Positions 22,700 to 25,608 of a DNA stretch of 59,284 nt are shown in pieces. A program made the position numbers and the translations under genes. Each line of letters begins with the position of its first letter. Positions within the stretch are counted from its first letter, which is position 1. Where the stretch lies: assembly GCA_028714335.1 (NCBI GenBank), contig JAQTMM010000004.1, forward strand, positions 1 through 59,284, written 5' to 3'. This DNA comes from Dehalococcoidales bacterium (lineage in GTDB: Bacteria; Chloroflexota; Dehalococcoidia; Dehalococcoidales; RBG-16-60-22). Below the pieces are notes generated by a model that was given only the letters and a program-made list of their open reading frames with translations, was not told the DNA's origin and did not search any database.

Positions 22700-24673
22700 T
22701 TAGATGCTCCCCTTCTTTTCTTCGTGCTGCTGTTTGAGGGTTTCGGCTTCCGCCGTCAGTTTTTCCCACTCCGCCGTTAAAGCGCGGATGGACTCTTTAG
22801 CCTGGACGTATTCGCGGTTGACCTCCGCCACTTTATTGCCGTCTTTATAGTGGTCGGGGTCAGCAAAAAGCTCCTCGATTTCCCCAAGGCGCGCGGTCAG
22901 CCGGTCAATTTTCTGCTCAATGTCCGCAATACTCCTTTTAACCGGCGCAGCCTTGCGGTAAAACTCATTCCGCAGTTCGGCTTCTATCGTCTTACGTTCC
23001 CGCCGCTGTTCTTTGGGTTTAGCCGGTGCGTGTTCCCTAATCGCCCTCAAAGTTTCCGGGACGTTATCAACGCGCGGCGCCTCCGTCTCCAAAAACTCGT
23101 CGTAGTTGCCGTTAAAGACCCGCGACCTGCCGTCTTTGATGTCAATGATTTTATTAGCGATTTCTCGTATCAGCGTGCGGTCATGGGTGATAAAGCATAT
23201 CGTGCCAGTATAAGCCTCTAAAGCGTCGGTCAGGATTTCACGGCTGGGGATATCCAGGTGGTTGGTCGGCTCATCCAGCAGTAAAAAGTTGGCGGGACGC
23301 AGCAGCATCTTGGCGATAGCCAACCGGGTCTTTTCACCGCCCGAAAGCACCGCCACCTCTTTAGAGACGTCCTCCCCGGTGAACAGGAAAGCCCCCAAAA
23401 GCCCCCTAAGGCGCTGGTCGGTTTCGTCCGGGGCGACCACCTGCAGCTCCTTGATGACGGTGTTCCTGGGGTTAAGCAGTTCGATATAGTACTGGGCAAA
23501 GTAAGAGGTAGTGACGTTATGCCCCAGAATCCTTTCGCCTTTTTCAAAGGGCAGGACTCCCGCCAGCATCTTTAAGAGGGTGGTTTTACCCGCCCCGTTC
23601 GGCCCTACTAGAGCCACACGGTCGCCGCGATTCAGCACCAGGTTGAGATTCCGGTAAACAGTTTTATTTTCGTAGGACTTATCAATATCTTTAAGCGTGA
23701 TAACCACGTGGCCACTACGCTGCGGCTCCGGGAAGGAGAATTTTATCTTCTTGGTCTGCCGCGGCACCACAATGCGCTCGATTTTATCTAAAGCCTTGAT
23801 ACGGCTCTGCACCTGCACCGCCTTGGTGTTCTTGGAGCGGAAGCGCTCGATAAAACGCATCTGCTTGGCAATCTTCTTTTCCTGACGCTGGGCCGCCGCC
23901 TGACGCGTCTCCATTTCCTTTTCCCGCGCCTCGACGTAAGCGTCGTAGTTGCCGTGGAAAAAGACAACCTCGTCTAACTCGATAGAGATGACTTTTTTCA
24001 CAACGTTGTTCAAAAAGGCGCGGTCGTGGGAGGTCACCAGCACGGCGCCGTGATAACCCTTAAGATAGTTTTCAAACCAGCGCTGTGTTTCCAGGTCGAG
24101 GTGGTTGGTCGGCTCATCCAGTATCAGGAGGTCGGGGTTGGTGAAAAGCAGTTTTGCCAGCTCGACGCGGGTCAGCCAGCCGCCGCTGAACTCCGCCAGT
24201 TTGCGGGTAAAGTCGGACGGCAGAAAGCCCAGCCCCGCCAGAATCATCTCCGCCTCGTGCTCGGCGTTATAGCCGCCAGACGATTCGAATTCGTGCTGAA
24301 CCTTGCCCAGCTCGCGCATCAGCAAGGCTCTTTCTTCCTCGTCCTTGGCTTCGGCGAGGTCTTCCTGCAGCATCTGCACCTTGTGCGCCAGTTTATTGAT
24401 GTTGCCGGCGGACTCGACGACTTCTTCCAGCAATTGGCGGGTAGAGGAGTGCTGGACGTCCTGCCGCAGGTAGCCGATGGTCGTCCCGCGGCGCACAGCG
24501 ACGCTGCCGGTATCCGGCGTAATACTGCCGGTGATAATCTCAAAAAGCGTCGTCTTGCCGGAGCCATTAGGCCCGATAACGGCAATGCGGTCGCCCATGC
24601 CGACGTTAAAACTAACGCCGTCAAAGAGGTACTCCGCATTATATGACTTGGATACGTTGGATATATTAAGCAT
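22700..24673 (-). CDS. ABC-F family ATPase
   Basis: ABC-F proteins have two nucleotide-binding domains and no membrane part. They act on the ribosome, either as translation factors or as antibiotic target-protection proteins. Here the first Walker A (GPNGSGKTT) is at residues 34-42 with signature FSGGWLTRVELA, and the second Walker A (GPNGAGKTT) is near residue 355 with LSGGEKTRLAIA. The inter-domain linker, residues about 235-320, is rich in Lys and Arg, as expected for the ribosome-contacting arm. A coiled-coil C-terminal extension covers about the last 100 residues. At 657 residues it resembles the Uup/YdiF-like group. The upstream leader looks like a transcription attenuator, which suggests induction by ribosome stalling. 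Confidence 0.93.
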   Translation of the reverse strand: MLNISNVSKSYNAEYLFDGVSFNVGMGDRIAVIGPNGSGKTTLFEIITGSITPDTGSVAVRRGTTIGYLRQDVQHSSTRQLLEEVVESAGNINKLAHKVQMLQEDLAEAKDEEERALLMRELGKVQHEFESSGGYNAEHEAEMILAGLGFLPSDFTRKLAEFSGGWLTRVELAKLLFTNPDLLILDEPTNHLDLETQRWFENYLKGYHGAVLVTSHDRAFLNNVVKKVISIELDEVVFFHGNYDAYVEAREKEMETRQAAAQRQEKKIAKQMRFIERFRSKNTKAVQVQSRIKALDKIERIVVPRQTKKIKFSFPEPQRSGHVVITLKDIDKSYENKTVYRNLNLVLNRGDRVALVGPNGAGKTTLLKMLAGVLPFEKGERILGHNVTTSYFAQYYIELLNPRNTVIKELQVVAPDETDQRLRGLLGAFLFTGEDVSKEVAVLSGGEKTRLAIAKMLLRPANFLLLDEPTNHLDIPSREILTDALEAYTGTICFITHDRTLIREIANKIIDIKDGRSRVFNGNYDEFLETEAPRVDNVPETLRAIREHAPAKPKEQRRERKTIEAELRNEFYRKAAPVKRSIADIEQKIDRLTARLGEIEELFADPDHYKDGNKVAEVNREYVQAKESIRALTAEWEKLTAEAETLKQQHEEKKGSI

Positions 24674-24709
24674 TTTTTCTTCCTTATTATTTTAAGTTAT
24701 TTGTCGCGG

Positions 24710-24901
24710 AAAATAAAAAACCCAGGGTTTTTACGCCTGGGCTCAAATGTATACCGATAACTAATCTAGCTACGTTTGAAAAAGGGTGCAATGAGCCCTT
24801 GGCGACACGCCGGCCGATATGGCTACGTTCGTTGTGCTTATCCGGCTGCCCAAAAACTGAAAGCTCAAATGCACCGCATGGGTTTCCTTTCCTTTAGAAT
24901 C
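24710..24901 (-). ncRNA. Candidate attenuator leader RNA of the ABC-F gene
   Basis: A leader of about 190 bases should run from near 24901 to a terminator at 24741-24710. Four segments can pair in exclusive ways. Segment 1 (24875-24863, GGTGCATTTGAGC) lies over a tiny upstream ORF. Segment 2 (24798-24784, GGGCTCATTGCACCC) pairs with segment 1 by 6 plus 5 base pairs. Segment 3 (24745-24736, TGAGCCCAGG) can pair with segment 2 through GGGCTCA/TGAGCCC, or with segment 4 (24726-24721, CCTGGG) to form the terminator stem, followed by TTTTTTATTTT. A stalled ribosome over segment 1 would free segment 2, break the terminator and let ABC-F be transcribed. This is inferred from complementarity and not computed. 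Confidence 0.65.
24865..24879 (-). CDS. Upstream leader peptide MRCI of the attenuator
   Basis: The frame ATG-CGG-TGC-ATT-TGA encodes Met-Arg-Cys-Ile. A purine-rich GGAAAGGAAA lies 4 bases before it. The whole ORF overlaps segment 1 of the proposed attenuator. Such very short leader ORFs are used in known antibiotic-inducible leaders. Whether this one is translated is not known. Confidence 0.5.
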   Translation of the reverse strand: MRCI

Positions 24902-24907
24902 CAAAAG

Positions 24908-24936
24908 ATTATATTACACTGTATTTGGCATGTCAA
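24908..24936 (-). promoter_or_regulatory. Consensus promoter of the ABC-F leader
   Basis: On the minus strand TTGACA (24936-24931) and TATAAT (24913-24908) are both perfect and separated by exactly 17 bases. It is the strongest-looking promoter in the window. This fits a constitutively started transcript controlled by downstream attenuation. Confidence 0.85.
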
Positions 24937-25005: not shown

Positions 25006-25608
25006 ATGGAAGAAAAAATAGTTTATTATGAGAAGCCGGGAGGCGAAGAAAATACCGAGACCACCTTAAAATTAGCTTTAGAACGCGCCAAAGCCCGCAA
25101 CATCAAAAAGATTATCCTTGCTTCAACACGAGGCGACACGGCACGTAAAGCCACCGCACTCTGGACGTCAAGCGGCATCAAGATAATTGTAATACCGCAC
25201 CAGTTCGGGTTTGCGGGCATGCATTTTCCGCCGGAACTGATTAAAGAACTGGAAGCGCAGGGGCACGTCGTCCACTTTGGGACGATGCTGTTTCACACCG
25301 AGCGTTTTTACAGCATGGATACGCCCACTATCATGGCGAACCTCCTGCGCACCTTTTGCCAGGGAATGAAGGTCTGTGTGGAAATTGTTTTAATGGCGGC
25401 TGACGCCGGGCTTGTAGATATCGGAGAACAGGTTATTGTGGTCAGCGGCTCGGGGAGGGGGGCGGATACCGCTGTAGTTGCTGTGGCTTCCACATCAACA
25501 CACCTAGCCGACCTGCATATCACCGAGGTTATCTGTAAGCCCCTCCAGACTAAGCAGGGACCGCCGCCGCCACCACCCGGGCAAGGTCCTCCACCCGGAC
25601 AGAAATAG
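25006..25608 (+). CDS. Stand-alone pyruvate-kinase alpha/beta (C-terminal) domain protein
   Basis: The 200-residue protein corresponds to the regulatory C domain of pyruvate kinase without its catalytic barrel. Segments that fit are NTETTLKLALERAKARNIKKIILASTRGDTARK near residues 16-48, then IIVIPHQFGF and the late VIVVSGSGRGADTAV. It ends in a low-complexity tail of Pro, Gly and Gln from about residue 184. The fold may bind a phosphorylated small molecule. A strong AAGGAGGT precedes the ATG. The hydrolase gene begins 26 bases later, so they may be co-transcribed. Confidence 0.75.
   Translation: MEEKIVYYEKPGGEENTETTLKLALERAKARNIKKIILASTRGDTARKATALWTSSGIKIIVIPHQFGFAGMHFPPELIKELEAQGHVVHFGTMLFHTERFYSMDTPTIMANLLRTFCQGMKVCVEIVLMAADAGLVDIGEQVIVVSGSGRGADTAVVAVASTSTHLADLHITEVICKPLQTKQGPPPPPPGQGPPPGQK

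Follow-up and report, generated by a model that had tools for sequence, protein, structure and literature searches.

The question raised by this locus is whether ribosomes on a short reading frame decide, by stalling or not, if transcription continues into an ABC-F gene. The gene (22700–24673, minus strand) encodes a 657-residue ABC-F ATPase of the YheS/YdiF-like type and lies in the window, by which we mean the whole 59,284-nucleotide stretch of Dehalococcoidales DNA that was analysed. An earlier note, made from the sequence of the window alone, had seen in front of this gene an attenuator controlled by an upstream ORF (uORF) in a Chloroflexota genome. A homologous leader in a second species keeps promoter, SD, an ORF over segment 1, the alternative stems and the terminator, but the note's assignment of the ORF and its inference of an antibiotic role fared less well.

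Promoter, terminator and alternative stems

The promoter is perfect, as the note had read it: TTGACA (24936–24931) and TATAAT (24913–24908) match the sigma-70 consensus at 12 of 12 positions across a 17-nt spacer (24908–24936, minus strand). Since the 1.74-Mb genome has 28 copies of the exact TTGACA-17-TATAAT pattern and only two of a reversed control, we take it as a meaningful signal and not a chance match. Between promoter and gene lies an intrinsic terminator (24715–24744, minus strand) consisting of the stem CCCAGG/CCTGGG and a T-run, which ends 37 nt before the ABC-F ATG at 24673, again as had been claimed. Its loop is 9 nt long and it was therefore passed over by an automated terminator scan with a loop limit of 8.

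A homologous leader is present in a genome of the same genus (G027, also L016/L032; CAIWTG010000012.1, uncultured Chloroflexi bacterium). The ABC-F proteins of the two species are 91% identical and their genes 85% identical over the 485 codons available, and the leaders, aligned from near the start site to the terminator, are 73% identical. Both promoter hexamers, the leader SD, GTGCATTTGAGC, an inner hairpin, segments 2 and 3 (see below), the terminator and a 33-nt block between the terminator and the ABC-F start (24675–24707, minus strand; identical in both species and including the SD AAGGAAG at 24685–24679) are all kept in the relative, the two hexamers without any change; conservation is much lower in the loops and upstream of the promoter.

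The alternative pairings 1:2, 2:3 and 3:4 described in the note were found, and all three are kept in the second species. Segment 1 (24860–24875, minus strand), the 5′ arm of the putative anti-antiterminator, pairs with 24785–24799; segment 2 (24785–24803, minus strand) can partner either segment 1 or segment 3; and segment 3 (24735–24749, minus strand), the 3′ arm of the antiterminator, overlaps the 5′ arm of the terminator in both species. The 9-mer CATTTGAGC does indeed occur at 24871–24863 and again at 24749–24741. Right after the 1:2 hairpin comes a run of five U (24779–24783, minus strand; six U in the relative), so that the hairpin may itself act as a second terminator or a pause site, in which case an early stall would relieve both.

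Comparison of the two leaders bears directly on these stems. Of 13 aligned pairs in the 1:2 stem, eight are unchanged and five carry one-sided changes that keep pairing; among the 12 aligned pairs of the 2:3 stem, ten are unchanged, one has a one-sided change and one a two-sided change (24792–24745, A-U to G-C), and in neither stem is any pair broken. Base 24792 is common to both stems, and its change to G keeps both pairs (in 1:2 as G-U). In the terminator, whose arms in the relative are GAGCCCGGG/TCCGGGCTT, nine pairs are kept with one A-U to G-C change in the structural register, which was set by hand; by alignment columns two terminator pairs look broken. An outcome of 0 of 25 pairs broken was reached in a fraction of 5e-5 of trials when substitutions were shuffled over the whole leader and in 0.14 when they were shuffled among helix positions only, with two leaders as the entire sample. 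The paired segments are thus clearly under constraint. The note had looked to conserved and covarying stems in related genomes as a check; the stems are kept in the one relative, but covariation proper is weak and depends on very few events.

The pairing energies by themselves are suggestive, and the case rests on comparative conservation. The predicted pairing of segment 2 with upstream sequence was matched in 47 of 2000 dinucleotide shuffles (220 of 2000 for the relative), that of segment 3 in 62 of 2000 (9 of 2000 for the relative), and the z-scores of the whole-leader folds are modest (−1.44 for the source DNA and −2.38 for the relative). Unmasked, the leaders of both species fold as 1:2 plus 3:4. 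We modelled stalled ribosomes by masking the 5′ part up to 16 nt past the start of the P site. Before segment 4 exists, 2:3 is predicted to form in the masked source leader when the ribosome stalls at codon 6 or 9, and in that of the relative when it stalls at codon 1, 3, 6 or 9; with the source leader stalled at codons 1–3, segment 3 is paired with a different part of the sequence in the fold that precedes the terminator. Once segment 4 is present, 2:3 wins in the relative, whereas in the source DNA the terminator is the more stable at equilibrium, so any model in which 2:3 prevails needs co-transcriptional kinetics.

Reading frames of the leader

A purine-rich SD region, AAAGGAAAGGAA (24884–24895, minus strand), could serve either of two start codons, lying 5 nt from an ATG at 24879 and 10 nt from a GTG at 24874 with a core SD:anti-SD duplex of −6.3 kcal/mol. 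The ATG opens the five-codon frame MRCI-stop (24865–24879, minus strand) that the note had proposed as the uORF. Both the frame and its ribosome site are there, but in the relative the ATG aligns with ATC, and the only short frame of that leader, MKGTITCI, has an ATG without an SD. MRCI as a conserved uORF is ruled out by the relative's sequence, which settles negatively the note's question of its conservation. The GTG, in contrast, has an SD in the relative as well (7 nt away, duplex −5.9 kcal/mol).

The uORF common to both species thus appears to be the frame that starts at the GTG, which is not the frame of MRCI. It runs for 34 codons, (V/M)HLSFQFLGSRISTTNVAISAGVSPRAHCTLFQT-stop, from the GTG at 24874 to a TAG at 24770 (24770–24874, minus strand), with a predicted peptide, reading the GTG as M, of VHLSFQFLGSRISTTNVAISAGVSPRAHCTLFQT; its GTG and TAG are both aligned in the relative, where the frame has 30 codons and the peptide MHLSSLVKDSRITISAGLSPRAWCAFFETQ. 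Indels within the frame measure 15 and 3 nt, those outside it (from the promoter spacer to the terminator loop) 1, 1, 2 and 1 nt, and the two multiples of three are modest evidence for coding. Of 18 codons with the same residue in both species, 16 are identical in nucleotides (against 0.667 per codon expected from the ABC-F gene; binomial 0.03), a sign that the RNA is constrained over and above any constraint on the peptide. A block ISAGxSPRA is conserved in the peptide, and its codons are identical too. The middle of the peptide is not conserved (FQFLG against SLVKD in the relative), leaving a specific nascent-chain sensor without support.

In both species the anti-antiterminator overlaps the uORF, which spans segments 1 and 2 and has an SD that would place the predicted ribosome footprint over segment 1; an initiating ribosome on either the ATG or the GTG would sit there. 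The note's statement that segment 1 is covered by a small ORF therefore stands, although with the GTG frame as the conserved one.

One could still suppose that the switch is the same but senses through MRCI, with the long GTG frame incidental. Its ATG does have an SD, at 5 nt, and uORFs of ARE ABC-F genes can be very short, as with MIN for VmlR (PMC9226507) and MR[I/M] for CplR (PMC10201436); given the latter consensus, MRCI is not unreasonable as a sensor. The loss of its ATG in the relative, where it is the GTG that has an SD, and the fact that all indels across the GTG frame are multiples of three make this rather unlikely in our view, and we retain the GTG frame as the candidate sensor.

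A putative stall-controlled switch and its ABC-F protein

A promoter, an SD, an ORF over segment 1, mutually exclusive stems and a terminator are all kept in two diverged species, and on these grounds we consider the leader probably to be a ribosome-controlled transcription attenuator of the ABC-F gene. If nothing is translated, 1:2 would form, leaving segment 3 free for 3:4, and transcription would stop near 24715. Free translation of the GTG ORF should lead to termination too, as 3:4 would be synthesised with the ribosome positioned on segment 2. Only a ribosome held at the start codon or within about the first nine codons would mask segment 1 and let 2:3 form before segment 4 has been synthesised; with the terminator so blocked, the ABC-F gene would be transcribed. 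The most likely trigger would be some condition in which ribosomes halt during initiation or early elongation, such as a ribosome-targeting antibiotic or a shortage of stall-rescue capacity, and the circuit would be closed by the action of the ABC-F on the stalled ribosomes.

What kind of ABC-F is made matters for this reading. The protein has two ABC_tran domains, ABC_tran_Xtn and a C-terminal ABC_tran_CTD, and is the sole PF12848 match, and hence the only ABC-F detected, in an assembly about 89% complete. It scores 441.6 bits with the generic NCBIfam model of ribosomal-protection-like ABC-F proteins (cut-off 380) and 423.9 bits, well short of the cut-off of 917, with PRK10636, which we take to be the YheS-type model; all specific ARE models of NCBIfam score far below cut-off. 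Its best solved relatives are YheS and YbiT, and a tree groups it with these two and with Collinsella. The interdomain linker has 142 residues, as in YheS, against 172–176 in Lsa(E), Msr(E) and Vga(A), and long linkers are a tendency of AREs (Murina 2019, PMC6723617). The sequence features therefore point to a non-ARE, YheS/YdiF-like protein of housekeeping appearance, from which the antibiotic role that the note had inferred does not follow; the linker of OptrA is also 142 residues long, however, which leaves room for a role in resistance.

A non-ARE protein that is the only ABC-F detected in its genome could instead regulate itself: the leader ORF would be hard to translate, the ABC-F would relieve the pause, and too little ABC-F activity would switch on its gene, antibiotics playing no part. 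MsrD reportedly counteracts the leader-dependent induction of its own gene (PMC10314930), and the conserved ISAGxSPRA could be the difficult stretch. RNA constraint explains that block equally well, its codons being identical, and a ribosome paused at this block would sit over segment 2 and promote termination, the opposite of what such a loop requires. We regard autoregulation as distinctly unlikely.

Returning to control by early stalls, we suggest only tentatively that a lineage-specific attenuator has put the sole, housekeeping-type ABC-F under stall control, so that it would be made on demand for early stalls, whether endogenous or induced by drugs. If true, uORF-controlled attenuation of ABC-F genes would reach the Dehalococcoidia, beyond the ARE cases of streptococci, Bacillus and Clostridioides, and would extend to an ABC-F resembling a housekeeping ribosome-stall factor.

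Origin of the leader and comparison with known attenuators

An ABC-F orthologue above threshold is present in nine of 31 genomes of the family, and the homologous leader in one genome of the same genus. Searches with the peptide (31 family and 393 class genomes) and with a DNA core pattern allowing three mismatches (156 genomes of the order) returned no leader beyond the two, and neither viral contigs and plasmids nor the remainder of the source genome gave another copy. Upstream of 18 other Dehalococcoidia orthologues no terminator was found within 320 nt or the shorter stretch available, and 16 of them have a 5/6 or 6/6 match to the −10 hexamer 14–30 nt before the start codon; the other two (L029 and L030) lie closely behind another gene, with a −10 match of only 4/6. 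With nearly all of these orthologues having a −10 hexamer near the start codon and none a terminator, the most parsimonious history is that the leader was gained, probably recently, on the branch leading to the two species that carry it. Most of the genomes compared are draft metagenome bins. Two of the 18 belong to the same genus and occupy the same locus, adjoining a divergent PK_C-domain gene, and such sister species without the leader provide a natural before-and-after comparison.

The 33-nt identity at 24707–24675 exceeds what an SD needs, and the block contains TAAAAT and AATAAT near the position of TATAAT in other orthologues, possibly as the remnant of a promoter. It could be argued that the upstream promoter and terminator belong to a small gene or small RNA and that the ABC-F gene is driven by a weak promoter downstream, since these hexamers stand just before the ATG, the place of TATAAT in most orthologues. 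Inspection by eye shows no good −35 at the correct spacing, and the pairing of segment 2 with both 1 and 3 that is kept in the relative would be needless for a plain terminator; we judge this arrangement improbable. A leader of riboswitch type, in which the inner hairpin (24846–24809) senses a metabolite or protein and the ORF is unused, is highly improbable: although the hairpin, GCCGGATA...TATCGGCCGGC, falls within the most nucleotide-conserved stretch of the ORF region, no Rfam family matches the leader above its gathering score, and an ORF would account for the 15 nt inserted in the loop of the hairpin and for a start, stop and SD that align. A T-box or amino-acid attenuator was rejected, there being no codon run, no biosynthetic gene and no Rfam match.

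In trp-type amino-acid attenuators an ORF lies over segment 1, translation reaches segment 2, and 1:2, 2:3 and 3:4 compete. The present leader shares that logic but has neither a run of a single amino acid nor a downstream biosynthetic gene. It is also analogous, in logic and not demonstrably by descent, to the attenuators of vmlR, cplR, msrD and hflXr, but belongs to another lineage, has a longer uORF that spans segment 2 as well, and precedes a gene of non-ARE type. In the vmlR leader of Bacillus subtilis an early ribosome stall leads to read-through (Takada 2022, PMC9226507), and it too has a short uORF in an anti-antiterminator stem, an antiterminator and an intrinsic terminator before an ABC-F gene; unlike here, that gene encodes an ARE, the uORF has three codons inside SL-1, and an SD-sequestering hairpin and a NusG pause take part (PMC9226507). 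In Clostridioides difficile, the chromosomal ABC-F gene cplR is preceded by an MR[I/M] uORF (MRCI resembles MRI), an anti-terminator and a terminator, but the terminator overlaps the gene's SD, the protein is an ARE and the host belongs to the Firmicutes (Obana 2023, PMC10201436). In streptococcal msrDL-msrD it is again a leader-peptide stall that lets transcription pass the intrinsic terminator ahead of an ABC-F gene, but the stall is caused by macrolides at the stop codon of MYLIFM, in a resistance operon with mefA (PMC10314930). Finally, hflXr/rli80 of Listeria shares a uORF within the anti-antiterminator and the attenuated transcription of a ribosome-rescue factor, and differs in its 14-residue RLR peptide and HflX-type gene (PMC6310831). 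A literature search (open-licence papers) for Dehalococcoidia together with leader-peptide attenuation found no paper. The leader appears to belong to an established class of switch, here in a lineage and before a type of gene where it was not expected.

Three further observations concern the surroundings of the switch. A pyrimidine run after segment 2 (24785–24777, CCTTTTTC; CCTTTTTT in the relative) can pair with the ABC-F SD region (24685–24675), possibly adding a translational layer like those of vmlR and cplR. The ABC-F is patchily distributed, with a PF12848 match in only nine of 31 family genomes, including two of the five better assemblies, so that many genomes of the family may have no ABC-F. 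The divergent neighbour (25006–25608, plus strand) encodes a stand-alone pyruvate-kinase C-terminal (PK_C) domain protein, and the start of this gene adjoins the ABC-F gene in same-genus genomes too.
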